From a virus, in the IMG/VR virus record IMGVR_UViG_3300018420_000025, positions 1 to 52,665 of that record: a DNA stretch of 52,665 nucleotides. One strand, written 5' to 3'. Below the pieces are notes generated by a model that ran no database searches, was not told the DNA's origin, and worked only from the letters and a program-made list of their open reading frames with translations. The translations under genes and the position numbers were made by a program. The number at the start of each line of letters is the position of its first letter. Position 1 is the first letter of the stretch. Shown here one piece after another: positions 8,265 through 34,559 of the stretch.

Positions 8265-8654
8265 TTAACATCTCCATCTACGTCTAGCAGCTTTACCTCT
8301 TTCACCTGTCCAGTTTTTTGATCTAGCACAAAATGATTTTCTACGTTTAGCTGCTTTACTACCTGGTTTTACTTTACCTGTTACTGCTGTTTTTAATTTA
8401 CTACCTGGGTTTTTTCTTCTATATTCAGCAACACCTTTAGCTGTCATACCAGCACCTTCTTTAACTGTTCTAAAGTTACGATTTTTACCTTTAGTTGTTT
8501 TTCTAGGTTCGTTGCTCTTTTTTCTTTTAAATAATGGCGACCCATCATTTCTACGTCTACCACAACTAGTTACTGGCATAGGATTACCCTTCTGTATATA
8601 TTGTTTTACAGGTGATGCTTCAAACATGTTATTTTGTCTTTCGCTTCCAGGCAT
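8265..8654 (-). CDS. Basic protein with MTAKGVAEYRRKNPGSKLKT signature
   Basis: 129 residues, strongly basic. The C-terminal 65 residues carry a compact conserved block: GAGMTAKGVAEYRRKNPGSK, TGKVKPGSKAAKRRKSFCAR, and GERGKAARRRWRC at the end. I recognise this block from marine phages (a domain of unknown function, DUF6321-like as far as I recall). The N-terminal half has SPVKQYIQKGNPMP and SPLFKRKK, further versions of the short S/N-P-x-K motif found in this cluster. The ten residues before Met10 could be dispensable, since MFEASPVKQ would be a natural start. Function unknown; likely DNA- or RNA-binding. Confidence 0.7.
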   Translation of the reverse strand: MPGSERQNNMFEASPVKQYIQKGNPMPVTSCGRRRNDGSPLFKRKKSNEPRKTTKGKNRNFRTVKEGAGMTAKGVAEYRRKNPGSKLKTAVTGKVKPGSKAAKRRKSFCARSKNWTGERGKAARRRWRC

Positions 8655-11203: not shown

Positions 11204-14200
11204 TTACATGCCTTTAAACCTAGGACCTCTATATTTCTTTTTTCTTTGTAAATCATCTTCAATGCCAAGACTCCATTTTGTGTAACCACTAAACAACATA
11301 ACTCTTTGTAACGCTGTATATTCATTATTCATAGCGTCTCTAAGATTTGTTGCTTTTTGATATATTCTATTAGCAGGTGGTCCAGCTACTTCAATATAGT
11401 TAGTAGCGGCAGACCAAGCAGGATTATCAGCATCAAAAGTTTCCATTTCGCTTATAATGTTTTCGTTATAGTTAAGTGTTTTTTCTGCATTAACTAGTTT
11501 TCTAGCTTTAATACCTACAACAGGTGAAAAGTTTAATAACTCCATTAGCACAGCGCTTTCATCTTTATTATAACCCGCTTCTCTTTGTTCTAAAAATTTA
11601 ATAGCCATGTTTTTTATAGTTGAAACAGCAACTCCGTATATACCAGATCCTCTTAATATAGTATCTATAGTACCATTAATAACTCTTTCTTTTTTCTTTA
11701 AAAACTGTTCGTTTTCTTCTTTATCGTCGTCAAACATGACCGCAAACAGTGCTGTTTGTAAACCATAGAATATTAAGTTTTGTATAGCGCCATAATACAA
11801 TATTCTAGACATGTTAGACGCGTCACTTTGGAACTGGGTTGTATTCGGCGGTGTTATTCTTCTATTAATAATATCACTACCAGCTTTTTTAATTATTCTA
11901 TTGTACTGTGATGGTGTGTTTAAAAAGTTCAATACTAACTTACCTATCCACATAGCTTGTTGTTTTGACGTCATGTCAGGTCTTGCTGATTGCTGCGTAG
12001 AATTAGTTATATCTTGTAAATCAGTAAACGCTTTTGCTTCTGCTTCTTTTTTACTTAAACCATCTTTAATATACTTATTAATTCTATTTCTATAAAAAGC
12101 AGCACCTCCAGTTGCAATAGCAATACTATCACCTATTTGTGTAGGTAAAAATCCTAGCTTAAGAGCTTTACCTGTTATAATAGCTACTTGATCAAACATA
12201 TTACCAGGTCTAGCTTTTTTAATAGCTTCAGCAAGTTCTGCACCGTTAATATCTGTTTGTAAGCCACCACGTCTTTGCTTAAGCATGTCTGAATTAAATA
12301 TAAAAGCAAAATCTTTCCAGTATTGTTTTTGATTTGCAAAAGCTTTAGCAGCCGCAATTATATTATTATCAGCAAAGTTTATAAAGTTTATATTAGATAA
12401 TTGCTGTAACAAAGCAGATCTAGTGTTAAAAAACATTACACCTGAAACAGAAGCGTTTAGCCAGTTCATAAACGCGTTTGGTCTTGCGCTAGCTCCTTTT
12501 GGTCTATTAACACCAGTCTTAATTCTATGAAGCATGTCTTCTAAAGCTTCCCTAAAACTTTTACCGTAAGCAGCTTCTATTTTATTAAGATTAGCTTCAT
12601 CAAACATCTTGTCAGCGTTTTCGTTAAACTCTGCAAAATAACTTGCTCTACCAACTCTACCAGTAGCATCTACTAAATCTATTCTTATATTACCAGTTTC
12701 CCAATTTGGCCCTGGGTCTACATAAGCCTCTTGTCTAGATATTTTATTTACTGCTTCAGCATAAGAAACAAGATCCGCGTTATCTGTTACTATTTTTACT
12801 AAATTAGCTTGATCTGTAGCAGCTAAACCAGGTATAGTGTAACCATGTTTGTTCCATAAATAAACTCTTATAGCATCTTGATAAGTAAAATCTTTATCTG
12901 GTGTTTTTTTAACTAACATATCGTTAATATCAGAAAACTGTTTATTTAAAGATTTATAATCATTAGCTATAGCTTGTTTAGCTGTGTCTATTTCTCTATA
13001 AGCTCTATTTAATGGTCTAACTAAAGCTTGCTCAAAAAATTTTCTGTGACTATCACCTAATCTACCTTTACCCATAAAATTGTAAAGTAAACCTACAAAG
13101 TCTTCATGCGATGGTGGTATAAAAAATCTAAACTTACCTTTACTTTCACCACGTTTTCTAGCTTTCATAGCTGAAAAACGTTTTTTAGAATCAATACCTG
13201 TAACGTCTTCAAGTATATTGTTAAAGTTTTCACTTATACCTAAACTAAATTTAGATTTAGCTTGTTGTACGTTAGACTTAATATCTAACTGCTCTAGAGC
13301 ATTTTTTACAGCTTTAACATTAGGTAAAGCGTCATCTACAAAATACATGTCATTATAGCCTTCTGAAAACTTTTCAAGCATCCACATGGCTTTTGCTTCA
13401 CCTGTACTATTACCTAAACCGGTTATATTTTCAAACGGTATATTTATACCTTTTGTTTTTAACCATTCATGTATTGCTGTAGCGCTTTGTGGTGGCCTAG
13501 CTGTTAGTACAAATACATTTTCAGGACCAAACTTTTTAACTTGATTACGCATTTTTTGCAATAGTGGTCCTTCAATACCACCTCTTACATTTACAAAATC
13601 TGTAAAATCAAATTCATATCCTAACTCAGCATATCTAGGTCCTTCTATAGGCCACTGCCCGCTACTTATTTTTATTTCTTCGTCATCTTTTTTAGCTATA
13701 ATAAAGTTTTCACCTTTATCAATAAGCGTTTCATCAAAATCAAATGTAGACATACCTCTTGATTCTTTGTTTGTAATTCTACCGTTTGATATAGCTTTAG
13801 AAAGCTTGTTTATATCGCCTATCGGTTGTTTAAACTCAGGTTGCAAACCAAGCATGTTACGTATAGACTCTTCATTAATCACTGATTGATCAGATGGTTT
13901 TTTTAAACCAGTCAATGTGTTTTGGTATTGAAGTGTAAAACGAACATATCTATCGTTTTGCATTTTACCTTTTCTCATTACTTTTACATTACTAGTTCTT
14001 TTATTCATTTTAGCTTTAGCGCCTGAATTAAAAACTCTTAACTTTGTTTTTACTTTACCAAGATCTTTTATATAAGGAACACCTTTTAGTCTAGAGTTTT
14101 CTACAAAAGAATAAAGACCTAAACCTAAAATTTCTATAGCTTCAACACCACCATAAGGTTTTGCTAAGTAATGATCTATAAGTGGTTGCAGGTCTTTTGA

Positions 14201-17200
14201 AATAACTTCGCTATTTCTAAATATATTGCCTGTAAATTTTTCTTTAACTAGTTCATTATAAATAGACTCAACCATAGCATGACCAATAGGATTTTTAGTG
14301 TCCATTAAAGGCTCGTTTGTTTTATTTTTTTTATTGTAAGCTGTTACTTTTTCGTTATAAGCTGTTACAAGTTTATTTATATCACCACTAACACTTTTTA
14401 ATATTCCACCAAAATTAATACTGTTTTCCATGGAGCTTTTAGCTATTTCAAACTTTCCAGTTTTAGTATTATAAGATGAAACTACTACGCTACCCATGGG
14501 TACTTTAGAGTCCATTTTAACTTCTAAATTAAGTCTTTGACCAAACAGTTCTAATGATATATCTGCTAACCCACCTTTTTCAGTAGCTCTTTCTTCAGCA
14601 AGTTTCAGTACTTCTGGTGGAAAACCGTATGCTTGTAAAACTTCTATCATAGCTTGTTCTAAAGCTCTACCTCTATCAGCAAACTCACCAGATTTATATA
14701 ATTCCTCTGTTCTTTCGCTTATAGATAAAGAAAATTTAACAGTATCAAAAGAAGCTAATTCAGCTTGAGTTTCATCTGCAGTTCTAGATATTTTTCTAAG
14801 TTTAGCTTCTACAATTTTATTTATATCCTTTGAGTTGTTTATTATATAATCATCTATAATTATATCAGCTTTTCTTTTAGCTACACGTCTTAATAAAGCT
14901 GTACGTCTTTCTGTTAAGTTTCTTTCGTTGCTTTCTAAAAACCACCTTATATACTCACGTTTATTAGTAATATTTTTTTGTGTGTCTTTTACGTAATTAG
15001 TCTTTTTACCTGTTTTCTTACTAATACCAGAATAATCTTTTTTACCTGTTTTTTCTTGCTTAAACCAAGATTTATAAGCTTTTCTTATAACCGAAATACC
15101 TAAGCTTGGAACAATCTCATCGTACTCATTTCTAATCCAAGCTTCATATTCTGGAGTTGGTTCTCTTTTGCCTGTTTTTTTATTTTTAGCAATTTTAGGA
15201 ACGTTATCATCAAGCATTTTACGTATATCCGTTAAAATTAACTTTTCCATTTTAGCTTCTAAATTTGCAGGATTTTGTTCTATTAAAGCTTCAACGGTCT
15301 GTAATACAGCTGCATCGACAAACTCTTGATCTTCTAGTTGAACGTCAAAATCTTTTAAAGCTCTAGCTTTAGTATCTGGAGTAGTAGGCTCTTGTTTTTT
15401 GCCTTGCGTATCATCAGCTATATCTCTAACATCTGGATCATCAAGCGAAACATCTTTTCTTTTTGTAGCTAATTTTTTAGCAGCATCTAGTTTAGCAAAA
15501 CCAATATCAGACATAATACGCTCACCTATAGTTATATCTTCTTTACTATCAGCTTTTCTTTGCGCTTGTGGATCATAACCCATTAATCTGTCACGAGCAG
15601 ATTCTATAGTAGCTTTTGTTTTTTCAGGGCTCATTTTTAAACCCTTTATATAGTTGTTTATAGCACCACCTGATAAAGCTATTGATTCAAATAAATCGTT
15701 AAATTCATTACTTTTTCTAAACTCATCTTGAGTGTATTCAATACCTTGTTCTTTTAATTTATCTTTTAGTTTTTGCTCTATTTCGTTTACAGCACTAACC
15801 GCTCCACTTCTTGATATAGATTTTGAAGCTTTTCCACCAACAACTTCTTCGTCAGGTGGTATTTGTAAAGATAAAGTTCTACCTAAAGCTCTGTTTTGAA
15901 AACTTCTAATATAAGCTAAAACATCTTCAGCTGTTCTCATATTAAACAACCAAGATTTATTTCCAAAAGCTTTTTTATAAACACCGTTTAAAAAAGACTT
16001 TAAGCTTAACATAACGTTTTCGTTGTTTTTAGACACTATACCAGCATTAATAAATTCACCGTATAATGGTTTTAACTCGTCTAATCTTATGCCTCCTTTA
16101 TTTATATATTGATCTAATCTTTTTCTTGCTGTTTTATATCTTTCTTTTTTAAGATCACCTCTTTGATATAAATTTTCTAAATGATTACTTAATTCTTTTA
16201 AAGCTTGTTTGTGTTTTGCTTCAGCTTCTACGCCAGTAATAACACCTGCTTTTATATCTTCTAAATGCTGTAATTCGTGAAGAGCAGAATAAGCTATAAA
16301 AGCTCTTTGGTCTCTATTAAGAGCTGGATCTTTAAGATTATTTATAACGTTGTCTTCTATTAATATTATTTGATTTAAGTTTTCTACAACAGTACCTGGA
16401 GCACTTTTAAGCTGATTAGAAAGGCTTTCGTACTTATCCATCGTTATATCTCCTTTCTCTACTAAACCTATTAAATGTTTTTGTGCAGCGGCAAAATCTT
16501 TAAACTCTAAAGTATCTGCGTTTTCAGTATCTTGAGCTACTTTTAAATAATTTTTATATTGACCAAAATAATAAGCAGATTCAACATCAACATTATCTTT
16601 ACCTAAAACGCTTTGTAAAGCCTCTAGTCTTCTTTCTTCTGGTTTTTTTCTTAATTGTTCGTTTTCGTTAACTAAAACGTTTATTTTATTTTTTATTTTT
16701 TGTAGCCTTTTGTTTTCATAATTTGTTCTTTCGCCAGGTCCTTTAATAGAACCTTGAGACATAGCCTCGCTTTTAAGCTCTCTAATTTTTGCCATGTTTT
16801 CAAAAAGCGTACGTATATCGCTATCGTCCATGTTAGCAACATCTGCAAAAGTAGTAAAATCAGCTAAAGCAGCTTCTTTCATTAGTTTCATTATTTCTAC
16901 TTCGTAATAACGCATTTCTTCTTGTTGAGCAGGTGTTAATGAAGTTGGGTTTCTTTCTAATAAATTATCATAAGAATTTTTTAAATCTATTAGTCTTGCT
17001 TGTCTTTCTGCGCTTTCTTTTCTTTCTTTTCTAGTAGTAACTTCACTTCTAACTGAGTTTATAACACTCATACCCATAGAAGGACCTTGAATAGCTAATG
17101 ATGAAAAAACTACGTTCATAAAAAAATCTGGATCAATACCATCTAAAAGACTCTTGTTTTCTTTTAATACAGCGTTATCAACTAAGTTATGACCTATTTG

Positions 17201-18889
17201 TGTTAATACTTCTTCTGTTGTTTCAACACCAGTGTTAAAACCATAAAAACCTACGCCTTTAACCACGTTTTTAAAAGTAATAGGACCAGTTGATTTTGCT
17301 ACTTGAGCTAATCTTTTCATGATATTCATAGTACCTAAACGCTCTGCTACCATTGCAATACCGCCATACGTTATAGAAGAAAAAGCTTTATCTCTTTCAG
17401 TTACGTTTAAATCATCTTCGTATTGATCTATTATTTTTAACAACCTTAATCTTTCGCTTTCGTTTTCTATAGTAGACAACTCTTTTCTTAATTTAGGTAA
17501 TTGTTTAGCAGCGTTTCTTTGTCTTTCTTCTAAAGAAGCTAATTTAGAACCTCCTTCAACAAGACCAAAGCTAGCAGAAATAGCAGTTGCTGCTCTATTA
17601 GCAACAGCTTGTTTAACAACACCTTTAGCCGCTGCCGCATATAAACCACCAGCTAATAAAGCACTAGAAATACTAAAAACATTTTCAGAAACAATATTGT
17701 TTATAATTTCACCAGACTCTCTAAATGTTAAATCTTTTGCTCTTTGTGGAAGAGGTAGCATAGCTTCTTTTTTAAGCTTTAATAACTCATTATAGCTATA
17801 TACCGCGTCATAATCAAGTGGATCTCCAACGCCTAACCACTTCATTATTCCAGCGCCTTGCATAGCTGCATCACTTAAAGCTAATTCAAGATTAATCTTA
17901 GATCTTTGATCAAAACGATAACGTAAATTAAAAGCTTTCATAGCAATATCAGCATTGTTTGTTTTTTCTACGTTGTCGTGAAACTTATTAATTACAGGTG
18001 TTAGCTTATTATATTTTTCTATTAAAGCGTTGTACTCTTTTATTTTTTGTGGAGAAGAGTTTTGATCTACTTTACCTATTTTTTTAAACTCTGACTCTAA
18101 TTCATCTATTTGTTTTTTTAGACTACTACTTTTTTCTTCTATATAATCAGACATAACTTTACTAGTGTTCTGCCCAGCATATCCTTTCCAGCTTTGTATT
18201 ATATCAATATTTCTTTCAGGATCTGTAAATAGTGGTAGGTTTTCAGTACCTTGTGTTTTAAGTTTTTTGTCTTTTTCAACAGCATCCTTAAACAATGTAA
18301 TATATTTTTCATCAACTTCATCACTAGCATCGAATACGCTGTAAAAATCGTTTTGCAAATTTTCTTGCATTTCAGCTCGCAGGTTATCATCATCTAAAGT
18401 ACTTATATATCTTTGCGCTGCTCTGTTTCTTTCTTCATTAATAGCAACCTCAATATCACCTTGTGATACTAAGTCAAAATTAAAAGTTTCATTATTTTTA
18501 AAGTCTTCATAATCACTATACTTTAAACCTCTACCTTTTTCAAAATAAGTTTTTAAATCTTCTTCTTCGCTTGTATTGTATCTCTTTTTAGAAAATATAC
18601 CAGCCTGTAGTTGTGTAAAGTTACCTTCTCTATCTCTATAATCTTGAAATCCTTTGTATTGAATATTGTCTATGTTAACATATTCGTTTGTTGAAAAATA
18701 CTTATTACCAACGCTTTGTATAACGTTAGGACTATTTCTAGTAATATTATTCATTATATTATAAACCTCAAACTTAGAGTCAGGTTTAGGTGTTAAAGCC
18801 TCTGCATCAGGATTTTGTTGTAAAAAATTTTGTAATGACTGAGGTCTAACAAACACTGTAGAACCATCTCGCAATTTATATTCTGACAT
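11204..18889 (-). CDS. Giant internal/ejection protein with peptidase, nuclease and HAD phosphatase motifs
   Basis: 2561 residues. The N-terminal third has acidic coiled coils and Gly/Ala-rich hydrophobic helices (around 400-600) of the type that cross membranes when virion proteins are ejected. Downstream, His871-Glu-Leu-Gln-His875 is an HEXXH zinc peptidase motif. Asp1443 with Glu1456 and Lys1458 (LADISL ... LNLEVK) fits a PD-(D/E)XK nuclease. DFDET (Asp1717, Asp1719), VLTARP and VDD (1852-1853) fit the HAD phosphatase motifs. The C-terminal 500 residues carry further hydrophobic helices and a basic end (KKKYRGPRFKGM). Multi-domain 'polyvalent' proteins like this are known to enter the cell with phage DNA. 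The order with the 592- and 263-residue proteins mirrors podovirus ejection-protein sets. Activity is not shown by motifs alone. Confidence 0.8.
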   Translation of the reverse strand: MSEYKLRDGSTVFVRPQSLQNFLQQNPDAEALTPKPDSKFEVYNIMNNITRNSPNVIQSVGNKYFSTNEYVNIDNIQYKGFQDYRDREGNFTQLQAGIFSKKRYNTSEEEDLKTYFEKGRGLKYSDYEDFKNNETFNFDLVSQGDIEVAINEERNRAAQRYISTLDDDNLRAEMQENLQNDFYSVFDASDEVDEKYITLFKDAVEKDKKLKTQGTENLPLFTDPERNIDIIQSWKGYAGQNTSKVMSDYIEEKSSSLKKQIDELESEFKKIGKVDQNSSPQKIKEYNALIEKYNKLTPVINKFHDNVEKTNNADIAMKAFNLRYRFDQRSKINLELALSDAAMQGAGIMKWLGVGDPLDYDAVYSYNELLKLKKEAMLPLPQRAKDLTFRESGEIINNIVSENVFSISSALLAGGLYAAAAKGVVKQAVANRAATAISASFGLVEGGSKLASLEERQRNAAKQLPKLRKELSTIENESERLRLLKIIDQYEDDLNVTERDKAFSSITYGGIAMVAERLGTMNIMKRLAQVAKSTGPITFKNVVKGVGFYGFNTGVETTEEVLTQIGHNLVDNAVLKENKSLLDGIDPDFFMNVVFSSLAIQGPSMGMSVINSVRSEVTTRKERKESAERQARLIDLKNSYDNLLERNPTSLTPAQQEEMRYYEVEIMKLMKEAALADFTTFADVANMDDSDIRTLFENMAKIRELKSEAMSQGSIKGPGERTNYENKRLQKIKNKINVLVNENEQLRKKPEERRLEALQSVLGKDNVDVESAYYFGQYKNYLKVAQDTENADTLEFKDFAAAQKHLIGLVEKGDITMDKYESLSNQLKSAPGTVVENLNQIILIEDNVINNLKDPALNRDQRAFIAYSALHELQHLEDIKAGVITGVEAEAKHKQALKELSNHLENLYQRGDLKKERYKTARKRLDQYINKGGIRLDELKPLYGEFINAGIVSKNNENVMLSLKSFLNGVYKKAFGNKSWLFNMRTAEDVLAYIRSFQNRALGRTLSLQIPPDEEVVGGKASKSISRSGAVSAVNEIEQKLKDKLKEQGIEYTQDEFRKSNEFNDLFESIALSGGAINNYIKGLKMSPEKTKATIESARDRLMGYDPQAQRKADSKEDITIGERIMSDIGFAKLDAAKKLATKRKDVSLDDPDVRDIADDTQGKKQEPTTPDTKARALKDFDVQLEDQEFVDAAVLQTVEALIEQNPANLEAKMEKLILTDIRKMLDDNVPKIAKNKKTGKREPTPEYEAWIRNEYDEIVPSLGISVIRKAYKSWFKQEKTGKKDYSGISKKTGKKTNYVKDTQKNITNKREYIRWFLESNERNLTERRTALLRRVAKRKADIIIDDYIINNSKDINKIVEAKLRKISRTADETQAELASFDTVKFSLSISERTEELYKSGEFADRGRALEQAMIEVLQAYGFPPEVLKLAEERATEKGGLADISLELFGQRLNLEVKMDSKVPMGSVVVSSYNTKTGKFEIAKSSMENSINFGGILKSVSGDINKLVTAYNEKVTAYNKKNKTNEPLMDTKNPIGHAMVESIYNELVKEKFTGNIFRNSEVISKDLQPLIDHYLAKPYGGVEAIEILGLGLYSFVENSRLKGVPYIKDLGKVKTKLRVFNSGAKAKMNKRTSNVKVMRKGKMQNDRYVRFTLQYQNTLTGLKKPSDQSVINEESIRNMLGLQPEFKQPIGDINKLSKAISNGRITNKESRGMSTFDFDETLIDKGENFIIAKKDDEEIKISSGQWPIEGPRYAELGYEFDFTDFVNVRGGIEGPLLQKMRNQVKKFGPENVFVLTARPPQSATAIHEWLKTKGINIPFENITGLGNSTGEAKAMWMLEKFSEGYNDMYFVDDALPNVKAVKNALEQLDIKSNVQQAKSKFSLGISENFNNILEDVTGIDSKKRFSAMKARKRGESKGKFRFFIPPSHEDFVGLLYNFMGKGRLGDSHRKFFEQALVRPLNRAYREIDTAKQAIANDYKSLNKQFSDINDMLVKKTPDKDFTYQDAIRVYLWNKHGYTIPGLAATDQANLVKIVTDNADLVSYAEAVNKISRQEAYVDPGPNWETGNIRIDLVDATGRVGRASYFAEFNENADKMFDEANLNKIEAAYGKSFREALEDMLHRIKTGVNRPKGASARPNAFMNWLNASVSGVMFFNTRSALLQQLSNINFINFADNNIIAAAKAFANQKQYWKDFAFIFNSDMLKQRRGGLQTDINGAELAEAIKKARPGNMFDQVAIITGKALKLGFLPTQIGDSIAIATGGAAFYRNRINKYIKDGLSKKEAEAKAFTDLQDITNSTQQSARPDMTSKQQAMWIGKLVLNFLNTPSQYNRIIKKAGSDIINRRITPPNTTQFQSDASNMSRILYYGAIQNLIFYGLQTALFAVMFDDDKEENEQFLKKKERVINGTIDTILRGSGIYGVAVSTIKNMAIKFLEQREAGYNKDESAVLMELLNFSPVVGIKARKLVNAEKTLNYNENIISEMETFDADNPAWSAATNYIEVAGPPANRIYQKATNLRDAMNNEYTALQRVMLFSGYTKWSLGIEDDLQRKKKYRGPRFKGM

Positions 18890-18890
18890 G

Positions 18891-20669
18891 TTATATTATA
18901 CTATTTAATTTTTCTATTAATGCCGCGTCTTTTACTTCTTTGCCTCCTGGAAAATAATATTTGTTACCTTCTTTTGTAAAATCATTATATCTTAACTTTC
19001 CTCTTATTATTGGATTTGTTTGATCTTGTATTTGCGTTTCTGTTAAGGTATTTAAGCCTTCTGGTTTGTTTAAATTTTCACCTTCAAATATTATATCAAA
19101 AGCGTTACCACTACCAATTGTACGCTGAAGCTTATCGGTATAGGTTCCTTTTTCAGCGTCTGCTATGTTTCTTTTATAAATCGAAGTAATACCGTTATTT
19201 GTTACAGCTTTGTATTGATCTTTACCATCACTATAGAAATAAGGTTGACCATTAGCTAGTGAGTCCATAAATCTATTAACATCGTTTTCAAGCACTTGTT
19301 TTTCTTCCATAAATTTTATTTCGCTAATTGATGGTTTTTCTGGCAGTTTATTAGCTGGATTATTTGGCGAGACTTTCCACTCTTGTTGTTGTTTAAATTT
19401 TGTTTGTTCTACACCGTTCTGAATTAAATAATCTTTAACATCAGGGCTATTAGGATTTAAAGCTGTTTTTAATTCATTAGTTACACCTTGTTTCCAAACA
19501 GCTAATTTACCCGCTTCTTCTTTAGTTAAAGTTTCTTCTGTTTTATCTTTACCAAACTCTCTTTCAATATATTTTTGAGTTCCATCAAAAACAGCTTTTG
19601 GAGTTTTAGGATCACCATCGTGATCTATTGTAACTTCAAAAGTAGGGTTGTCTATAAAATTATCAATTATTGTTCTTCCTGAGCTAGCTATACTACCATC
19701 TCTATTAAACTCAAGCGTTGAATCAAATAGACTACTCATCAATTCGTTAGGTGACATTTCATTAGTAGTCTTTTTTAGTAAAGTTGTATAAGTAGAGCCA
19801 TCAGTATTTTCGTCATAATCTCTAGCAAAACCCATTTTAATAGCATCGCCTTGCAGCTGAATAGAAATATTATCATATTTATCAGATTGACTTAATGTTG
19901 CTTTTGGCCATTTTTCCATAGGAACCAAATTAGCATCATCGCCGTACTTAGTATATATTCTTCTTAAGTCATTAATATCAGTTTGATCAAGCTTATCTGC
20001 TTTTTGATACTTATCAAAAAAACTTGTTACTTTATCTATATTTTCTACAATACCTTTAGGTAAATAAAACTTACCATCTTTTATTTCTATATAATCATCT
20101 AAAATACCATCAGCGTAAGCTTGTTGAAAAATAATATCTTCTGGAAGATTAAGACCGCTATAACTAGCGTTTATTTGTCTACCATCAGGATCTGTAATAA
20201 AACCTTTGTGTTGTATATCATGTGCATTTTTTTTACTGTTTTGATAAATTGAAGTTTCTTCTTCTAAACTTGATAAACCAATATCTGCTCGTGATATTAA
20301 ATCTCTACCTTCTTGTGATCTTCCTTTAGCTTCTTCACTTACAGGTAAATTAAATATTCCAACTTTTTTCTTTGTTCCATCGTTGTACATGTTTTGATAG
20401 TCTGTAATAGCTTTGTCTAAAGCTGGTATGGTATTATAAGCGTCTTTATTATCTACTTTAAAATCATCTATTTTAATAGAGTTTTTTTCATTCATTTCAA
20501 GCTTTTTATTAAAAGCTTTAGAAAATAAGTCTATAGCGATAGTACCAGCAAACTGCAAAAACTTATCCATGTTTCTGTTTTCTGGTTGTGACGGGGCTGT
20601 ACGAGTTTTACCTATTCTGCTTAAAGCAGCTATATCTACTACTCTACCTGTTGATGTTTTTTTAGCCAT
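18891..20669 (-). CDS. Probable internal virion protein
   Basis: 592 residues, mostly hydrophilic and helical, beginning with a basic stretch (MAKKTSTGRVVDIAALSRIG) and rich in Lys, Asp and Asn. No signal peptide, cysteines are rare, and no enzyme motif is recognised. It lies between the Gln-rich 263-residue protein and the giant ejection protein, ending two bases before the latter, in the position of the internal core proteins of podoviruses (functionally like T7 gp15). That neighbourhood is the only basis for the call. It could alternatively be a tail-hub component. Confidence 0.55.
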   Translation of the reverse strand: MAKKTSTGRVVDIAALSRIGKTRTAPSQPENRNMDKFLQFAGTIAIDLFSKAFNKKLEMNEKNSIKIDDFKVDNKDAYNTIPALDKAITDYQNMYNDGTKKKVGIFNLPVSEEAKGRSQEGRDLISRADIGLSSLEEETSIYQNSKKNAHDIQHKGFITDPDGRQINASYSGLNLPEDIIFQQAYADGILDDYIEIKDGKFYLPKGIVENIDKVTSFFDKYQKADKLDQTDINDLRRIYTKYGDDANLVPMEKWPKATLSQSDKYDNISIQLQGDAIKMGFARDYDENTDGSTYTTLLKKTTNEMSPNELMSSLFDSTLEFNRDGSIASSGRTIIDNFIDNPTFEVTIDHDGDPKTPKAVFDGTQKYIEREFGKDKTEETLTKEEAGKLAVWKQGVTNELKTALNPNSPDVKDYLIQNGVEQTKFKQQQEWKVSPNNPANKLPEKPSISEIKFMEEKQVLENDVNRFMDSLANGQPYFYSDGKDQYKAVTNNGITSIYKRNIADAEKGTYTDKLQRTIGSGNAFDIIFEGENLNKPEGLNTLTETQIQDQTNPIIRGKLRYNDFTKEGNKYYFPGGKEVKDAALIEKLNSII

Positions 20670-20683
20670 AATTTAAATTTTTA

Positions 20684-21475
20684 TTAAACACGAGCAAAAG
20701 TTCCAAAAGTTCTTTGAAACCAGCCTCTATTAGCAAGTTTAGATGCTCGTAAACCTTCTAGTTGACCAGCTTCTAAAGCTAATAAACCTTGTGTTTTTTG
20801 ATATTCTAAGTTTCTAGCGTCAACAGCACCTTGCAGTCTCATTTGTTCAGCAGCAAATCCACCTTGTGCAACTTGCATTTCAGCTTGTCTTTCCATTTGT
20901 TGAACTTGAGCAGCGCCTCGTGCTCTTAATATATCAGCTTGTCTTGTTTGTTCTGCTAAACTAGCTGTAACTTGTTGTTGTTGTTTTAATTGTGCATTTG
21001 CTATTTGCTGAGCGTTTATCATACCCATTTCTTGCATTTGCTGCAAAGCGTTAGCTTGTTGTTGATTAAAAGCTTCTGTAGCAATATCAGTAGCGGTTCT
21101 ATCAACACCAACCATATCTTCATATACGTTTTCAAAATCAGTTTGTATATTAGCGTATGGGTTTTCTACATCTTTAAAAATATTATCAGTACTTAAATCT
21201 TGAAAGTCACCTTTTAATCTGTCCATTCTACCTTCTGACTCAAGTATTTTATCACGATAACTTCTAGCAGTAGCATATCCTTTTCCTATAGTAGCGCCTA
21301 CAAGACCTCCAATTAAAGCACCTCCTACGGTTCCTACTGGTCCTGCGATTGTTCCAATTTTAGCTCCTAGTGTACCAGCTGCTGCTGCAGCTCCAACAGA
21401 TCCTCCAGCAGTTGCTCCAACATATAGGTTTTTAAAGGGTGATTTTTTTAACGCCATTGACTGTCTTTTCTTCAT
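20684..21475 (-). CDS. Glycine-zipper, Gln-rich internal virion (ejection) protein
   Basis: 263 residues. Residues about 22-65 form an Ala/Gly-rich membrane-active helix with GxxxG spacing (GPVGTVGGALIGGLVGATIG). Residues 130-250 are a long Gln/Ala-rich coiled coil (QQQQVTASLAEQTRQADIL and similar). This combination is characteristic of small ejection proteins that build a trans-envelope channel in short-tailed phages (compare T7 gp14, P22 gp7 in role). A second start at Met7 (MALKKSPFKNLYVG) would give the S-P-x-K tag seen in the basic cluster at the N-terminus. The next genes are the 592-residue protein and the giant ejected enzyme. Confidence 0.72.
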   Translation of the reverse strand: MKKRQSMALKKSPFKNLYVGATAGGSVGAAAAAGTLGAKIGTIAGPVGTVGGALIGGLVGATIGKGYATARSYRDKILESEGRMDRLKGDFQDLSTDNIFKDVENPYANIQTDFENVYEDMVGVDRTATDIATEAFNQQQANALQQMQEMGMINAQQIANAQLKQQQQVTASLAEQTRQADILRARGAAQVQQMERQAEMQVAQGGFAAEQMRLQGAVDARNLEYQKTQGLLALEAGQLEGLRASKLANRGWFQRTFGTFARV

Positions 21476-26060: not shown

Positions 26061-29000
26061 TTATTTTGTATTGTAAGTACACATAGTGTTATCACTTTGG
26101 CAAACTAAAGGATTATAACCTCCACCATTAACATCAAGATAATAATTAATAGCAGTTGGATCAGTACATCCTTTGTGATAACAACAACAACTTAAATCAG
26201 CACCAACACCAACTTGCCCTAAAACTCTAGCTACAGAAAGATAAGCACCAGGCGTTGGAGTACCCATTGTTGATTGACCTGTAACGGGATCTACAAAGAA
26301 AAGCTCTGCTTTAGTACCAGCACAATCAGCACAAGTTCTATGAAAAACACTATCTGTAGTTTTAGCGCCATATTTTGGATAACTATTACTACAATCAACA
26401 CAAGTATCTGGACTTAGCTCTCCTTCAACAAAATAATTAATTCTTTGGTTGTTACCACCATACCATCTTGCTCTTCCTTCTTCTTGTGTGCTACTATACC
26501 AATTTGGAGTATCATCTAATCCAAAACCGTTATATTCAAAGTTGAAAGCGTTTGGATCAAGACATCCAGCTTGATAACAACAAGCTGTTTCGTTACCGTT
26601 ACCAGCACAAAGAGTTGGATCACCTGCACAAGTAGCATCTAGTTGCGAGAAAACACTAACACTATTTACAATATTACTACCATCATAACCAATAACAGGT
26701 ACGTCTGCTTGCCAAACACCAGATTGTAAAGTATTCGCATTTGAATCATAATTAAAAGCACCAGCAAAAGCTTGTTTGCTATTAAGATCTACTACATATC
26801 CTTTGTTAACGCCTTTATGATAACTTAAAGCATAACCAAAACCATCTGAAGTATCTGAAACGTTGCTTGTCGTAACACTAGGAATTGTATGTATATATCG
26901 ATGTGCAATATCATCTGTACATCCATTAATAGTACTAACACAACAATTTTGATTACTAGTATTAACATCTGTCCAAGGATCACCATCACCTACAGCGCCG
27001 GGTATACCCCAGCCAAAGTTACCGCTAGTACAGGCAGTATCTGTATTTCCTGCACTTGGATCTTGACAACCAAATATTATAGGGTAGCAACTACCATCAT
27101 CTGAGCTAGCAAGTGGGTTGTAATTAAATGCTGGTTGACCAGGTGTTAAAGAACCACTTACATATCCACTACCACCACCACCATAACCTGAGTTTACAGC
27201 TGCTTGACTAGCTACGTAAGAACTAGGCATGTTACCATTATCTGTACAACCACTACCTTCATAAGTACAATTAGCATATGTACCGTTACTTGGAGTGTTA
27301 TTTGGATTATGAGACGACATACCCCAATACTCAATTAAATTAGCTGTTGGATCATAATTTGTAGCGTTCCAACCATCTCTATTATCACTACCATCAATAC
27401 TAGAAATAGGATCTAATGTTCCATCTTTAGAACAAACATCATAAGTTGTTAATGGTCCTGGATCTGTATATTGCCATAAGTTTGCTGTTTGTGGTCCGTT
27501 AGAATACGTTGTACCTCTACAAACCTTTATCATAGTACCTGGGTTATTTGGATCTTCCATTTCACCAGCGTGAAAACCAAGAGCAGGATCAATACAACCA
27601 ATACAACTCGTATTTTCACACTGAGAAGGATTTCCGTTTTGACAGTTACCAGGATCACCGCTTGGATTACCAGGCGTTACAGCTCCTGGCGCTCCATAAT
27701 TACAATAACCAGGACTTGTATCTGTACAACAATAAGTAGTGTACTGGCAATTACCATCATCAGCAGTTGCCGTTGGATCATAGTTAACAGCCGTATTATC
27801 TATACAACCAAACACAGTTTCAATACAAGTACTTATGTCACTACCAGAAAGCGCGTTTACACTATCATAACAACAATTAGGAGGTACTGTAACAGATCCA
27901 TTTTCATCTATACCATTAGGATTATTTTGATTACAATCATAACACAAGTTTGGATCATAATTTATATGTAAATAACCACAATCACCACCTCCAGCTCCAC
28001 AACCACTAATATCAGTACACTTATCACATCCAGTATAATTACCATTACTTGGATCACAAACACCAACCTGCGTGCAACCTATAAAAGAAGGTGGCCCTGT
28101 ACAAGTTGAATTATTACAATATCCATATATATCAGGTTGCGTGCCTTGATAATGATCACCTTGGCTACAACCTCCGTAACAACAAGTACCATCATCTATT
28201 ACAGTAGTAATATTAGGATCAAAACCTGAGTTAAGATTACCATAATAATTACCAGCATTTGGATCAGCACACCCGCTAACAGTTGCTCCTGCCATATCAC
28301 AACAACAGTTGTCACCGTTTTGTCCGTTTATACAGTTAGATTGACCAGCAGGATCATTAACACTACCACACGATGCGTTTGCGTTTGGATCGTAGTTTGT
28401 TGCGTTTGAATCCGTACAACCCCAAGTTGAATAGTAACAACAACTAGTATCGCCAGGTGTATAAACACCATTAACATCACAACCTGTAAACCCAGCATTA
28501 TAATTAGCGGCTGTTGGATCGCTACAACCCACGCAAGTATAATCACAACTTCCATCGTCTATATCAGCATTTGAATCGTAATTACAAGCACCTTGATCTG
28601 TACATCCAAGAACAGGATAAACACAACAATTATCTGAAGCGCTTCCAGCTAAAGCCCCACCATCAAAAGCTGTTTGAGTATAACTATTACCAGCGTTAAA
28701 ATCACTAGGATTACTATTACACCAAGAGTTAGAGCCTCCACCTATTCCTCCACTATAATTTGTAGCAAATTGATCTAAACAACCATAAACATAAGGCAAG
28801 CATACGTTGTTAGGATTACTAGTAGCGTTTGGATCGTAATTAAACGCACCTGCATTTGTACAACCATAAAACTCACATGATCCATCGTCACAGGTAGCTG
28901 TTGCGTCATAGTTATTAGCAGAAGCGTCGGTGCAACCATAAATACAAACAATACATGATCCATCATCAGTATTAGCGTTTGGATCATAATTTTGAGCATT

Positions 29001-32000
29001 AGGATCTGTACAACCATAAATAACTTGTGGTGATGATACAGAACTTGGTATACCAAGACCTTGTAAACTTACCTCTGAAGGATCTATATTGTTAATATTA
29101 GTAGCTTCACCTTTAATATAATTAAACCACTTGCCTTCTTTTTCTATAAACTCATTAACCATACCATGTTGCTCTGTAGATTTTCCTTTATCTGTAACTA
29201 TTGAGTTTACAAACCAACCATCTCTTGCTACAAGATTATAATATTCCTGATCATTGTATGTAACACCATTGACAACCGCGGTTGTTATTTGATCTATTTT
29301 AGAATCACTACCTTCATAGTTTAATGTGTTAAAAGATTTTACTATTTCAGGATTTCCGTTTAAAACAACGTTAACAGAAGATGAAACTTTATAATTACCA
29401 TAAAGAGTACTATAAACTTCATAAGGATCATCAGGAAATCCTCTATAGCTTTGCCAAAGCCTACCTTCTCTAAAAGTGTAGTATCTATTATTTAGACTTA
29501 TACCAAAAAAATCAAGTGGGTAGTTAGAACTAGTATGTAATATAGTTTCATCGTAATCTTTAATTCTTGAAGCCATAGACTTAAAGCTTACCCAACCCTT
29601 AGCATCTTCACTAAAAGATACAGTTAAATCTGAAAAAGTAACATTATAATTTTTCTTTTTAGCATCATAACTACCTATAACGTAATTTTTATTAAGACCT
29701 TCTTGTCTCATTATTTGTTCATCAGATAAAAAATAATCTGCAAACCAGTTACGCATACCAAACTCATGTATTGGAGTTAAACCGTCTCTTGATAATCTTA
29801 GCACAGCACCTCTTTTGGCATCTGTAAAATAAGCTCTATAAGATTCTGAAGTAAAAGACTCTGGGTTTTTAGATATACCATACTCACCAACAAAAGGAAC
29901 TGCTTGTCCTAGTACGTTTGTAGACGATGTTAGATTTAGATTACCATCAGCGTTAAACAAAGCGTCTTTATTTGCTAAAACTTTTAAAACTTTATTTTCA
30001 CAAAGAGTTATTAAATCAGTATCTCTAGTGTGTAGTTTTTGTATACTACCATAGCTAGGATTTAATTCTTTAACGTTACCTTCACCTATTATAAATTGAT
30101 TTAAGTTATTTATACCAGACATTGAGTTGTATATACCTGAAAATATTAAACCATTTTTTCTTCTTTCTTCTTTATATCTACCTTCAATTACAGTTGTAGA
30201 TACTTTAGGCCCATTATCTACTGTTACAGCGTTAAAATCATCACGTATTCTGTCAGATTCAACACCTATGTCATCACCAAAAACATAACAATTAAACCAA
30301 TTTAAAGAAACTAAATTACTATGAAAATCTCCTTGTATACTAACCGAAGAATCGATAGTATAACCAGTATCATCAATATCATTTGCAACAATTACTTCTA
30401 TTTTAGCACCTTTAAAAATTATATCTAATATAGTACCTTCTTCTAATCTTATTTCACCATCAACATTAGCTGTATTACCTAGATTAATATTTAAGTCAAA
30501 ATCTACACTTTGTACTATAGCGTCTTCTTCAAACTCTGTATTTAAATTGTTTCTAGCAAGCCAAGTGTCTCCACTAGCATCTTCTACATTGCTATAATAA
30601 TCAGGATTTGATTTTGATACCCTAACAATAGCACCGTTTCTTATTGGTTGAGCTGTTGAGTTAATTATACTTACAGGATATGAACCACTAGCTTCATAGT
30701 AAAGATCTATATCAGTATCTTGTTTAGGTTCTGTTTCCCATATTACAGGGCTGTCAGCTATTACTTTTTCGCTGTCACCTATTGAATATTGATCTTCTAA
30801 AATTTTTATAAAAGTACCACCCCCAACACCTTGAGCGCCTTCATGATCTTTATCTGTTGAGTGTGCTGACGCAGTGTCAGACTCAGTAGCCCAGGGATAT
30901 GTAGCGCCACCTGTACATTCTTCACTAGGACAAGTTTCTATAGTGCCATCATCTCTTTCTATTTGAACATCTTTTAAAGTGTATAAAGGATTATAACCAC
31001 TAGTATTATAAACTGGATTACCAAAATGCTTGTCAAAAGTTATATTCCAACCTACTCGAAGTGCATAAGGATTATTAGGTGTAGCTTGTGAACTTCCACT
31101 TATATCTTTTGCGTGACCTATTATAGAAAATGGTCCTTCAACCTTTGTTATAGTACGTATTTGAGGGCCACCATCTTCTCCTGTTTGATCGTCAGAAAAT
31201 TTAACTTTAGTACCTACTCTTAATCTTTCGATAAAGTCTTTTTGCTCTGGATAATTATCAAGATTAAATTCACTTGCCGAAGGTATTGCCCCGTTATAAC
31301 CATCTGCATCTATAACTTGCGTAAAAGCAATACTTATTTTTCTCGGTGTTGGGTCTTCATTAAGACGCATACCTTTTCTTCTATTCAACTGGTAATTATT
31401 ACCAGCATTATATGGAATTGTTATACCACCACCTACATGACTTTCGTCCTGAGTGTTTCCAGCACCATACGGAGCAAAAGAACCTGTTGTAGTATTAAAG
31501 AAAAAATAAGTTCTATCTATATACCAAAATCCACCCTCAACCTCAGGGTAATTATTTGCTATAGGCGAATAATTACCACCATCATATTCATGAGTACCGA
31601 TATAATGCCTTAGTATATTCATTGCTCTTTCAGCGTTTCCAGCAGGTGTGTAAAACTTTCTATTATAAAAACCTCCAGCTATATTTGTATTACCACATTG
31701 TGGTATCAAAGCTTCTAGCTCATTACCACTTCCATTTACTGGATCATAATCGACGCCAGCTGCAGTTCTTATTCTACTTCCTGGAACAGAATCTACACTA
31801 CCATAAAGCTCATAATTTCCGTTAAAATCATTTTCATCACCACTATAATCTTTTCCAGCATATCTAGTAGTTTTACTAGTTGTTTTCATTCTTTCTAACT
31901 GTTTACCTTCTCCAGAGTGTAGATAGTACAAACGTTTTGAATCTACTTCAATCCAGTTTGTTTCAGGTGTAGTAATAACTTTGTTATCTACAATAGCATC

Positions 32001-34559
32001 TCTTTCTATTTTAACAAAAAACCTACCATCAAACCAAGACTTGTGTTCTTCTTTTTCTCTTCTAAACACTATTTTTGTTTCGTTAAAAGTTTGAACAACA
32101 CCTCCAGCGCCTAAAACATAAGAAAATTCTATATCTTCTTCAAAAGGTTTTTCCATTGTAAACTCAAAACCTAAAGAGTCGCTACTGTTAAATATTTTAT
32201 CTATTCTATACCACTGTGATCTTCCATTATATTGAGTTTCACTTTCATTTATTATTTTTAAACTAATTTGAACTTCTTCTTGACCAATGGTTAAAGGATC
32301 ACTACTAGCAAGATCTTTTTCTGCTCTTTTTTGTTTAAATATAGCTATTAATTCTGTTAACTCGTTATGTCTATCTCCAGTTATTTCAAATATTTTAGAA
32401 TCTTTAACAGGAATATTGGCATTGGCATTAAATAAACCAGTTTGACTAAACAAACTACCAGACACATCGTCGTAGGCTACTGTATCAAGAGCCGAAGCTT
32501 GTTGTTTTATAAAATCAGGAGCTTCATTTTTAACAGATAATATTTTATATCTAGCTTTTTCTTTTACAAAAGCACCATGAGCATCCTTTTTAAGTATTAA
32601 ATAAGTTTCTTCATCAACCTTAGCTCTATCTGATGAAGGAAAAGAAAGCCAAACGTTACCGTCTTCAGCATCAAAAACTCTATCCATAGCTAAGTTATAG
32701 TACTCGCTAGAAGTTTCTTTTATAAAATATTTAAAACTTGTAGCCCAATCAGGAGCATCGTTTAAAGGTTTAACTGTTAACCTATGTTGTTTTTTAGCAA
32801 TGTCTTTACTAGTTTTTATCACACCGCTTTCACCTGTTAACACTGGTGTTTGTCTACCATAATCATCTTCATAAACAATACCAACTTGATAAGTTCTAAG
32901 AGATTTTATTGAAGGTAGAGAATCAAAATAATTTCCTCTTGGTAATTGAAAATCTTGTTTTTCATAATCTTCTATGTTTACTTCAAAGCTACCTTTATAA
33001 GGTACGCTACTATCAGAGCCAGAATATAAATCGTAGTTTTGTAAATAATTACCATATACTAATCTATTAGCAACTACTTCTTGACTAAGCGCTGCTCTTG
33101 GCACATTATCCCAATGCCTTTGTGTTTGGTTTTCTGGTATTGCTTTAGATATAGTGTCACTAGTTATTTTATATGTACCTTTAAAACCAGAGTCTTCATC
33201 AGTGCTAATATTTGTTGTAAAACTATTATAATTATACTGAGAGTTCCAATAATTATAAGCTTGACCAGGTATAAAAGGATCATTTTTTGATATTGTATCA
33301 ACAACATATATAACAGGTGATCCTGCTTCTCTATATAATATATCAACAGAAACAACATCATCTGGTATGTCTTGAGCTATAAACTGCTCTACATGAGCAG
33401 CATATAAAGTATTGACCATACCTAAGTTAAAACCTTTTGTAGGATGATAACTAAAACTACCTGGCGAGAAAGCTATTTGGGAAAATGGAGAAAAAGGTGA
33501 GTATTCACCGTCAGAATATTTCCATCTAGTTGCAAAGCGTGGAAACTTTTTTTCAAATATTAAATCTGGATCTGCTAAGTTTGTGACAGTATAAGCAGAA
33601 CTATACAGATTACCTTTTTTAGTAATTACCTTACACTCAATTGGAGTACGCAAATTTATACTACTAGTATCTCCTATACTCTTTATTAAAAGCTCTATAT
33701 CGTGATCAAACTTAATACCTTTACTCCACTTATCTTCTAAATCATGATCAGATCCATCAGGTATTCTTTCTACGGCTTTTAAATATAAAGTATCGCCTAC
33801 GTTGTAATAGTCATGTAGTACATTGCCATAAAATTTACCTATTAAATTTTTAACATTTATTGTTACAGTACTACCAACCCCAACACTTGCCGCGTGAAAA
33901 GTATCAGGATATGGTTGTCCACAGTAAAGCTTTATAGAAGTAGAACCACTACTTTCTAATCTTAGCACAGGTGGTACTTTAGGTCCTTTTTTTATTACTG
34001 TTATATTTTCTTCTGCAATATTTATCCCAGAGTTAAAATCAATACCTCTTTCTGGAACTATTAATCTAGTGTTTACGTTACCACCATCAGAAGTTCCTTC
34101 TATAGACCTTGGTATATTTATTCTTTTTGGTTCTGTAAAATTATCAGTCCAAAACAACATATCATCTACAATATTAATACCAGTTATTAATCTCGTTTTA
34201 TCGTATTGTAAAACACCTAAACTAACATCAACAAAAACAGGTATTAAATCATTAGTAACATTATTGTAACTAATAATCATATCTTTTTGATCAGAAGCTA
34301 ATAACAAATAAAAAGTATTATTTTTATCATCTGCAATACCACCAACACAAACAGCATCACCTGGAATAGTATTAATAGATGGGTTATTACCTCTTATTCT
34401 AAAATTTCTTTTTATATTTTGCAATGAACCTACATCAGACTCTTCAGATGTAGAAACCTGTATATTCCAAGCATCTCTATATTGACCGTTAGGAACTAAC
34501 CTTTCATCAAGGTCTTTGTTCATCTTACCACCGGTAAAATTATTTTTTAACTCTGGCAT
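26061..34559 (-). CDS. Tail stabilisation/nozzle-like protein with long C-terminal DDGSC-repeat extension
   Basis: 2832 residues. It begins MPELKNNFTGGKMNKDLDER and continues LVPNGQYRDAWNIQV, an opening I recognise from tail stabilisation proteins (P22 gp10-like) of marine and crAss-like short-tailed phages. The first 1800 residues hold repeated strands and loops (IVDDMLFWTDNFTEPKRINI near residue 115 is blade-like) fitting a beta-propeller nozzle plus extra domains. From about residue 1843 to the end come some 17 GCTDPxAxNYDxxANxDDGSC repeats with many cysteines. The second half is therefore probably a surface adhesin fused to the nozzle. It lies between the connectors and the adhesin. Fold assignment from motif and position, not from a search. 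Confidence 0.75.
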   Translation of the reverse strand: MPELKNNFTGGKMNKDLDERLVPNGQYRDAWNIQVSTSEESDVGSLQNIKRNFRIRGNNPSINTIPGDAVCVGGIADDKNNTFYLLLASDQKDMIISYNNVTNDLIPVFVDVSLGVLQYDKTRLITGINIVDDMLFWTDNFTEPKRINIPRSIEGTSDGGNVNTRLIVPERGIDFNSGINIAEENITVIKKGPKVPPVLRLESSGSTSIKLYCGQPYPDTFHAASVGVGSTVTINVKNLIGKFYGNVLHDYYNVGDTLYLKAVERIPDGSDHDLEDKWSKGIKFDHDIELLIKSIGDTSSINLRTPIECKVITKKGNLYSSAYTVTNLADPDLIFEKKFPRFATRWKYSDGEYSPFSPFSQIAFSPGSFSYHPTKGFNLGMVNTLYAAHVEQFIAQDIPDDVVSVDILYREAGSPVIYVVDTISKNDPFIPGQAYNYWNSQYNYNSFTTNISTDEDSGFKGTYKITSDTISKAIPENQTQRHWDNVPRAALSQEVVANRLVYGNYLQNYDLYSGSDSSVPYKGSFEVNIEDYEKQDFQLPRGNYFDSLPSIKSLRTYQVGIVYEDDYGRQTPVLTGESGVIKTSKDIAKKQHRLTVKPLNDAPDWATSFKYFIKETSSEYYNLAMDRVFDAEDGNVWLSFPSSDRAKVDEETYLILKKDAHGAFVKEKARYKILSVKNEAPDFIKQQASALDTVAYDDVSGSLFSQTGLFNANANIPVKDSKIFEITGDRHNELTELIAIFKQKRAEKDLASSDPLTIGQEEVQISLKIINESETQYNGRSQWYRIDKIFNSSDSLGFEFTMEKPFEEDIEFSYVLGAGGVVQTFNETKIVFRREKEEHKSWFDGRFFVKIERDAIVDNKVITTPETNWIEVDSKRLYYLHSGEGKQLERMKTTSKTTRYAGKDYSGDENDFNGNYELYGSVDSVPGSRIRTAAGVDYDPVNGSGNELEALIPQCGNTNIAGGFYNRKFYTPAGNAERAMNILRHYIGTHEYDGGNYSPIANNYPEVEGGFWYIDRTYFFFNTTTGSFAPYGAGNTQDESHVGGGITIPYNAGNNYQLNRRKGMRLNEDPTPRKISIAFTQVIDADGYNGAIPSASEFNLDNYPEQKDFIERLRVGTKVKFSDDQTGEDGGPQIRTITKVEGPFSIIGHAKDISGSSQATPNNPYALRVGWNITFDKHFGNPVYNTSGYNPLYTLKDVQIERDDGTIETCPSEECTGGATYPWATESDTASAHSTDKDHEGAQGVGGGTFIKILEDQYSIGDSEKVIADSPVIWETEPKQDTDIDLYYEASGSYPVSIINSTAQPIRNGAIVRVSKSNPDYYSNVEDASGDTWLARNNLNTEFEEDAIVQSVDFDLNINLGNTANVDGEIRLEEGTILDIIFKGAKIEVIVANDIDDTGYTIDSSVSIQGDFHSNLVSLNWFNCYVFGDDIGVESDRIRDDFNAVTVDNGPKVSTTVIEGRYKEERRKNGLIFSGIYNSMSGINNLNQFIIGEGNVKELNPSYGSIQKLHTRDTDLITLCENKVLKVLANKDALFNADGNLNLTSSTNVLGQAVPFVGEYGISKNPESFTSESYRAYFTDAKRGAVLRLSRDGLTPIHEFGMRNWFADYFLSDEQIMRQEGLNKNYVIGSYDAKKKNYNVTFSDLTVSFSEDAKGWVSFKSMASRIKDYDETILHTSSNYPLDFFGISLNNRYYTFREGRLWQSYRGFPDDPYEVYSTLYGNYKVSSSVNVVLNGNPEIVKSFNTLNYEGSDSKIDQITTAVVNGVTYNDQEYYNLVARDGWFVNSIVTDKGKSTEQHGMVNEFIEKEGKWFNYIKGEATNINNIDPSEVSLQGLGIPSSVSSPQVIYGCTDPNAQNYDPNANTDDGSCIVCIYGCTDASANNYDATATCDDGSCEFYGCTNAGAFNYDPNATSNPNNVCLPYVYGCLDQFATNYSGGIGGGSNSWCNSNPSDFNAGNSYTQTAFDGGALAGSASDNCCVYPVLGCTDQGACNYDSNADIDDGSCDYTCVGCSDPTAANYNAGFTGCDVNGVYTPGDTSCCYYSTWGCTDSNATNYDPNANASCGSVNDPAGQSNCINGQNGDNCCCDMAGATVSGCADPNAGNYYGNLNSGFDPNITTVIDDGTCCYGGCSQGDHYQGTQPDIYGYCNNSTCTGPPSFIGCTQVGVCDPSNGNYTGCDKCTDISGCGAGGGDCGYLHINYDPNLCYDCNQNNPNGIDENGSVTVPPNCCYDSVNALSGSDISTCIETVFGCIDNTAVNYDPTATADDGNCQYTTYCCTDTSPGYCNYGAPGAVTPGNPSGDPGNCQNGNPSQCENTSCIGCIDPALGFHAGEMEDPNNPGTMIKVCRGTTYSNGPQTANLWQYTDPGPLTTYDVCSKDGTLDPISSIDGSDNRDGWNATNYDPTANLIEYWGMSSHNPNNTPSNGTYANCTYEGSGCTDNGNMPSSYVASQAAVNSGYGGGGSGYVSGSLTPGQPAFNYNPLASSDDGSCYPIIFGCQDPSAGNTDTACTSGNFGWGIPGAVGDGDPWTDVNTSNQNCCVSTINGCTDDIAHRYIHTIPSVTTSNVSDTSDGFGYALSYHKGVNKGYVVDLNSKQAFAGAFNYDSNANTLQSGVWQADVPVIGYDGSNIVNSVSVFSQLDATCAGDPTLCAGNGNETACCYQAGCLDPNAFNFEYNGFGLDDTPNWYSSTQEEGRARWYGGNNQRINYFVEGELSPDTCVDCSNSYPKYGAKTTDSVFHRTCADCAGTKAELFFVDPVTGQSTMGTPTPGAYLSVARVLGQVGVGADLSCCCYHKGCTDPTAINYYLDVNGGGYNPLVCQSDNTMCTYNTK
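26085..29045 (-). repeat. Coding DDGSC repeats in the tail protein
   Basis: Imperfect units of about 20-30 residues, most with GC(T/S/A/L/I)D and DDGSC or DDGTC, separated by variable cysteine-rich inserts. The same repeat builds the secreted protein at 4289-6151. Two short spurious open frames in this stretch (28328-28555 and 28775-29056) arise from the repeat and are not genes. Confidence 0.8.

Follow-up and report, generated by a model that had tools for sequence, protein, structure and literature searches.

Introduction

Polyvalent proteins, which occur in phages and conjugative elements, combine several effector-type enzyme domains in a very large chain, and the peptidase is the commonest of these domains in the survey by Iyer et al. 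(2017) (PMC5512222). Other large proteins are known as virion cargo: the crAssvirus proteins gp45-gp50 travel in the virion and are presumed to be ejected (PMC10172136), and the giant virion RNA polymerase gp50 of phage N4, which includes an HExxH domain, is ejected (PMC12633501). The closest described counterparts of the protein presented below are gp101 of phage phi38:1 (Pervagoviridae) and gp18 of Elemovirus.

This protein, P0001, is encoded in an IMG/VR virus record of 52,665 bases, the whole of which was analysed and is called the window. Like the polyvalent proteins of that survey (PMC5512222), P0001 is a very large phage chain encoded in a late or structural gene context that combines a predicted zincin-like peptidase with further effector-type enzymes, and the peptidase, near-universal in the P0001 family, is also the most common domain of polyvalent proteins. 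Its effector-type domains are a HAD domain, a predicted nuclease and a predicted peptidase; the LPD and PolyVal Pfam models, usual in such proteins and not required, gave no match. In text searches of the survey (PMC5512222), the terms phosphatase and polynucleotide kinase are absent and restriction endonuclease appears in a reference only.

With gp101 and gp18, P0001 shares its gene position and a homologous membrane-type domain, to which gp18 adds a homologous HExxH domain; however, both lack a HAD domain and any match to the P0001 C-terminal domain, and gp18 gives no PD-(D/E)XK match. In their annotation, the crAss cargo giants are associated with RNA polymerase (PMC10172136), whereas a pattern search of P0001 finds no DxDxD polymerase motif, and P0001 likewise differs in this respect from N4 gp50, although both are giants with an HExxH motif. 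A reading of P0001 as a virion RNA polymerase of the N4 or crAss type was dropped for this reason. The P0001 peptidase profile finds nothing in the N4 HExxH region beyond the motif itself, and the match to the N4 peptidase domain is not significant. P0001 would work like a polyvalent protein and be delivered like a crAss cargo protein.

Results

The virus and its gene order

By terminase and portal, the closest named relatives are the Manatee Spring phage, the Flavobacterium Elemovirus, Cellulophaga phi38:1 (Pervagoviridae) and the Pachyviridae phi46:3 group; matches to PHROG head-and-packaging families were obtained for the terminase, the portal and further structural genes (Table 1). The virus is a Bacteroidota-type podovirus akin to Elemovirus, Pervagoviridae and Pachyviridae, with crAss-type structural genes in common. 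It is an uncultured virus, apparently of marine or aquatic origin, and its host is apparently a Bacteroidota-type bacterium. The GTDB contigs that hold relatives belong to metagenome-assembled genomes (MAGs) of unrelated phyla and are probably viral contigs that were mis-binned, so that no host was assigned from them.

The gene order is that of phi38:1, namely terminase, portal, structural genes, a muzzle-type gene, a gene of about 200-263 codons, a gene of about 550-590 codons and the giant gene; in the window, an extra gene of 1393 codons follows the muzzle-type gene. This extra gene (21862-26043, minus strand) sits between the muzzle-type gene and a 116-aa gene, is absent there in phi38:1 and has no match in Pfam or PHROG. 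The 263-aa neighbour matches phi38:1 gp99, an annotated structural protein (E 1.8e-12), and Elemovirus gp20 (E 1e-8), and a homologue lies upstream of the giant gene in 134 of 140 family loci. The sequence of the 592-aa gene is poorly conserved.

Elsewhere in the window, a 624-aa protein (4289-6163, minus strand) contains repeats with the pattern GC(T/M)D..(M/A).NYNP.AN.DDGSC, presumably akin to the cell-surface repeat proteins of marine Bacteroidota. Small, highly Lys/Arg-rich proteins that could condense DNA adjoin the structural genes (6429-6767, 7289-7654 and 8265-8654, all on the minus strand), and positions 1-1668 (plus strand) resemble by eye a partial ribonucleotide reductase clipped at the contig end.

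Table 1. Features of the window discussed in the text (residue numbers refer to P0001).
Feature	Coordinates	Strand	Basis
P0001, giant virion/ejection-type polyvalent protein (putative), 2561 aa	11204..18889	-	ORF; synteny and homology with phi38:1 gp101
C-terminal conserved domain, ~670 residues (1889-2561)	11207..13225	-	41-row alignment
HAD phosphatase domain, residues 1697-1892 (DFDET 1717, T1796, K1833, D1852/D1853)	13214..13801	-
Predicted PD-(D/E)XK nuclease cassette, exchange zone II, residues 1383-1690 (E1411, D1443, E1456, K1458)	13820..14743	-
KFS motif (1385-1387), left boundary of the cassette	14729..14737	-	F and S invariant in 11/11 PD-(D/E)XK cassettes
Linker, residues 1022-1382, left flank of the cassette	14744..15826	-	Parts strongly conserved between close relatives
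Predicted zincin-like peptidase domain, residues 741-1021	15827..16669	-	Exchange zone I, jointly with the membrane region
E938, candidate third zinc ligand	16076..16078	-	Invariant 63/63 in alignment A1, 66/66 in a second alignment
HELQH (871-875), predicted zinc site	16265..16279	-	H, E, H invariant 63/63
N-terminal membrane-type domain, residues ~331-640	16970..17899	-	Common to structural proteins of cultured phages
592-aa gene directly upstream of the giant gene	18891..20669	-	Position of phi38:1 gp100, synteny only
263-aa conserved upstream neighbour	20684..21475	-	Homologue of phi38:1 gp99
2832-aa protein with crAss-type muzzle C-terminal domain	26061..34559	-	Pfam crAss_MUZ_C E 4.2e-6, PHROG 14478 E 2.8e-131
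Portal protein	40556..42973	-	PHROG 6547 E 1.5e-154; matches Elemovirus, phi38:1, Pachyviridae
Terminase large subunit	42976..45192	-	PHROG 6681 E 6.7e-171

A large family of giant proteins

The open reading frame of P0001 runs from 18889 to 11204 over 2561 codons with no internal stop; the first-pass annotation had given its extent and length correctly, and its orientation, the minus strand, is added here. Whole-protein searches of Pfam, PHROGs and PDB sequences returned nothing useful, and a search of INPHARED gave no match. Relatives were found in IMG/VR, 174 in a first scan and at least 540 when the HAD domain was used as the query. The loci fetched yielded 161 non-redundant HAD-bearing reading frames, 140 of which have a complete N-terminus and more than 900 residues ahead of the HAD domain; complete family proteins measure 1814 to 4318 residues, with a median of 2866. 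A universal N-terminal leader was suspected but found no support, the leaders being of several types. A serine-rich linker (~DPTM.Q..MGS.L..GSS.S) is common to several members (L006, L008, L045, L046, L112 and others) despite their unrelated leaders.

The motifs on which the first-pass annotation had based a peptidase, a nuclease and a phosphatase are all present: HELQH (871-875), D1443, E1456 and K1458, DFDET (1717-1721), VLTARP (1794-1799) and VDD (1851-1853). Chance does not account for them, as the conservation described in the following sections indicates for each.

The HAD phosphatase and the C-terminal domain

The identification of residues 1697-1892 as a HAD phosphatase domain is confirmed at the sequence level by family matches and catalytic residues. 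The HAD region of the window matches Pfam DUF2608 (E 1.9e-6, 28.0 bits, for a cut-off of 22.6), a family of the HAD clan. Among 59 HAD sequences of the family, 34 match the PHROG 415 polynucleotide kinase (best E 5e-9), two match TIGR01664, a DNA 3'-phosphatase, and six match TIGR01509, while the motifs occur in order (D1717, D1719 and T1721; T1796; K1833; D1852/D1853) and are invariant or at least 90% conserved. Its nearest known counterparts are polynucleotide kinase 3'-phosphatases and HAD phosphatases; no kinase domain was found in P0001.

The C-terminal domain that follows has 58 columns that are invariant when 41 divergent members are aligned, and searches of Pfam, PHROG and PDB brought up nothing consistent. 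A correspondence with the giants of phi38:1, Elemovirus and the Manatee Spring phage was tested for this domain and not found.

The predicted zincin-like peptidase

HELQH is the sole HExxH of P0001, and exactly one HExxH precedes the HAD domain in 134 of the 140 N-terminally complete relatives (one or more in 135), for an expectation of 1.55 in 140 after shuffling. In an alignment of 63 peptidase domains with a mean identity of 14%, the only invariant columns are those of H, E, H and E938; as its rows were selected for HExxH, the independent evidence lies in E938 and in the count of 134. The domain profile retrieves small zinc proteases as its best PDB matches, weakly (E 0.044 and 0.046), and scattered matches to M78, M1, M90 and Zincin_1 occur amid chance-like ones. 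It also matches Elemovirus gp18 around the HExxH of that protein (hhalign probability 94-96%, E 1.7e-7 to 8e-9), whereas ten shuffled controls reached a probability of at most 0.5%. The AlphaFold model of this region in a relative is of low confidence there, and no zincin appears among the PDB matches listed by Foldseek. The zincin assignment of the first-pass annotation is retained for residues 741-1021 as a prediction supported by invariance and profiles. The syntenic giant of the Manatee Spring phage, of 3859 residues (L087 741-12320, MW202828.1), has two HEFGH motifs separated by about 885 residues.

The nuclease slot

In P0001, the region between the linker and the HAD domain is a probable PD-(D/E)XK cassette. 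E1411, D1443, E1456 and K1458 are invariant across 11 divergent slot sequences (alignment A4), and in an enlarged set D, E and K are kept in 28 of 28 and the upstream Glu in 27 of 28. The AlphaFold model of the domain (pLDDT 75, pTM 0.72) has the expected order helix-strand-strand, and its plausible PDB neighbours in Foldseek are mostly PD-(D/E)XK proteins (Hjc Holliday-junction resolvases, RecU, R.BspD6I2, MGME1), all of them weak, with every E above 0.3, low TM-scores and a best PD-(D/E)XK match at E 0.55. The nuclease proposed from the motif pattern is supported by its invariant residues and by a predicted fold that is matched weakly.

Iterated profiles divide the slots without any overlap into 28 PD-(D/E)XK cassettes, to which one was added by eye, and 129 cassettes of an unrelated type with several subgroups, which we call EH and which has a conserved Glu-His pair and a near-invariant Arg. 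The combination described at first as uncommon is so in one part only: peptidase plus HAD is the rule among the several hundred family members, whereas the PD-(D/E)XK nuclease is a minority cassette (29 of about 158 classified). The EH domain folds confidently within a 1067-residue model (pLDDT 85-95; for example L012:12074-15274, model residues ~710-1040). Its interpretation as an HNH nuclease, drawn from the order of its elements, was dropped: neither HNH nor any other nuclease is among the Foldseek PDB matches listed, in which the helical parts of the large model may have crowded out nuclease matches. EH is possibly a new enzyme class.

The membrane-type domain and the virion

An iterated profile of residues ~331-640, which took in 54 of 136 members, matches phi38:1 gp101 (E 1.6e-24), Elemovirus gp18 (E 1.1e-23) and phi46:3 gp120 (E 7.5e-11). 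That the enzymes lie between membrane-active regions, as first noted, is correct only in part: there are two weakly hydrophobic stretches, at about 395-425 and at 2367-2386 (Kyte-Doolittle maximum 1.4), but the first lies within this domain homologous to annotated structural proteins. In phi38:1, gp101 is the last gene of the shared order and owes its label of structural protein to a similarity with another Cellulophaga phage, an annotation behind which reportedly stands the proteomics of Holmfeldt et al. 2013. Because its N-terminal domain is homologous, and its gene syntenic, to gp101, P0001 is well supported as virion cargo. Its ejection with the DNA, claimed from the outset, we infer from the same homology and synteny.

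Since gp101 has the membrane-type domain and neither HExxH nor HAD motif, the enzymes are dispensable for the status of virion protein. A protein of this composition at the same position is what one would expect if P0001 had only a structural part in ejection and its enzyme-like folds were inactive remnants, a view to which we give hardly any credence: the catalytic residues are the best conserved of the peptidase and the nuclease, and among the best conserved of the HAD domain, even in sequences that are hard to align.

Exchange of modules between close relatives

On a 149-row FastTree phylogeny of the HAD and C-terminal domains, the slot type switches 13 times, at least 11 of these being forced by well-supported branches. 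The 66 pairs whose C-terminal identity is at least 80% show a median identity of 80% in HAD, of 25% in the slot and of 27% over the peptidase region, shuffled slots giving 19%; both exchange zones are low together in 34 of the 66 pairs, and sometimes one zone alone is low. In one pair (L060/L068), DNA homology ends at residue 1091, two residues past the FS at 1089, and returns at 1486, 26 residues ahead of the first Asp of HAD (1512). In another (L004/L085), DNA about 95% identical is interrupted by the replacement of residues ~73-1047, a span that covers the membrane and peptidase region. In other pairs the breakpoints lie up to about 55 residues from the FS motif, and the linker (1022-1382) is 68-96% identical in many close pairs with a replaced slot or peptidase. 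The HAD domain is itself sometimes swapped (L006/L108, C-terminal identity 85%, HAD 49%). These sequences show that proteins which are otherwise near-identical have swapped the N-terminal/peptidase block and the nuclease slot, with HAD and the C-terminal domain mostly fixed; the block can change independently of the slot, and the breakpoints fall near the FS motif and just ahead of HAD.

The motif [KR]FS occurs about twice as often as shuffling predicts (141 copies against 74) and accumulates at the slot start, at the slot end and after HAD; the slot-start count is partly circular, the alignment column having been picked there, the copies after HAD are inherited, and the enrichment at the slot end is the cleanest. 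That it marks a cleavage site is speculation. Such an excess at domain junctions is nevertheless what cleavage sites could produce if the protein served assembly and maturation only, the zincin processing P0001 itself or other virion proteins within the particle, the nuclease and HAD tidying genome ends and the swaps being neutral drift among equivalents. Autoprocessing has been proposed for the MPTase domains of polyvalent proteins, and P1 DdrB is processed before packaging, according to the same survey (PMC5512222). This explanation is an unlikely one in our judgement: between proteins of equal C-terminal identity, the peptidase and nuclease regions have been substituted wholesale instead of diverging step by step, whereas one would expect a maturation enzyme with a housekeeping role to match HAD in conservation.

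That unrelated cassettes replace one another at a single position, in the manner of polymorphic toxins, and that a Pnkp-like HAD adjoins the nuclease would also suit a weapon against competing mobile elements or against defence. In this view, the ejected nuclease cassette attacks resident plasmids, prophages or co-infecting phages, and the HAD blocks repair or destroys defence signals; we regard this as quite improbable.

Discussion

The best explanation of the whole, to which we assign a probability of roughly 0.6, is that P0001 is a giant polyvalent virion protein that is packaged and ejected, with a fixed chassis and exchanged host-facing effectors. The protein would be packed into the head and be ejected together with the DNA or before it, its N-terminal membrane-type domain aiding the crossing of the envelope. 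The zincin-like domain would then cut its own chain or host proteins, the PD-(D/E)XK domain would act as a nuclease, and the Pnkp-like HAD would strip phosphate, most likely 3'-phosphate at the ends of nucleic acids or else phosphate on nucleotides; the pairing of a nuclease with such a phosphatase suggests an action on nucleic-acid ends. The fixed parts would form the delivery chassis and the exchanged parts the host-facing effectors under arms-race selection, homologous recombination within the conserved linker and the HAD flanks being presumably sufficient for the swaps. That precisely the peptidase and the nuclease are swapped points to host-facing roles for both, and the swapping of cassettes points to an arms race as infection begins. 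Against this explanation, an ejected nuclease might cut the DNA of the virus itself, and we found no explanation of how this would be avoided.

A different formulation, which we hold tentatively and at well short of even odds, describes a cassette system in which the C-terminal ~670 residues and HAD form a chassis with two bays for effectors: a membrane/peptidase module occupies the first, and a nucleic-acid-attacking module, either PD-(D/E)XK or EH, the second. The junctions, at the FS motif and ahead of HAD, would bound the bays for recombination and perhaps for proteolytic release, and EH would be a new nucleic-acid-attacking class.

What is new here is a large modular family whose nuclease slot holds a PD-(D/E)XK or an unrelated EH domain. 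In the open-licence literature and libraries, we found no description of the HAD/C-terminal chassis with its exchange bays or of the EH domain, which may exist elsewhere. Phages of Bacteroidota are abundant, and the roles of their large virion proteins in the first minutes of infection are largely unknown. A family of giant proteins several hundred strong allows the conserved parts to be told by comparison from the exchanged, probably host-facing, regions, the natural swaps being ready-made comparisons. The homologue of the membrane and peptidase parts in the cultured Elemovirus, which grows on Flavobacterium sp. BAL314, brings these questions within reach of the bench.
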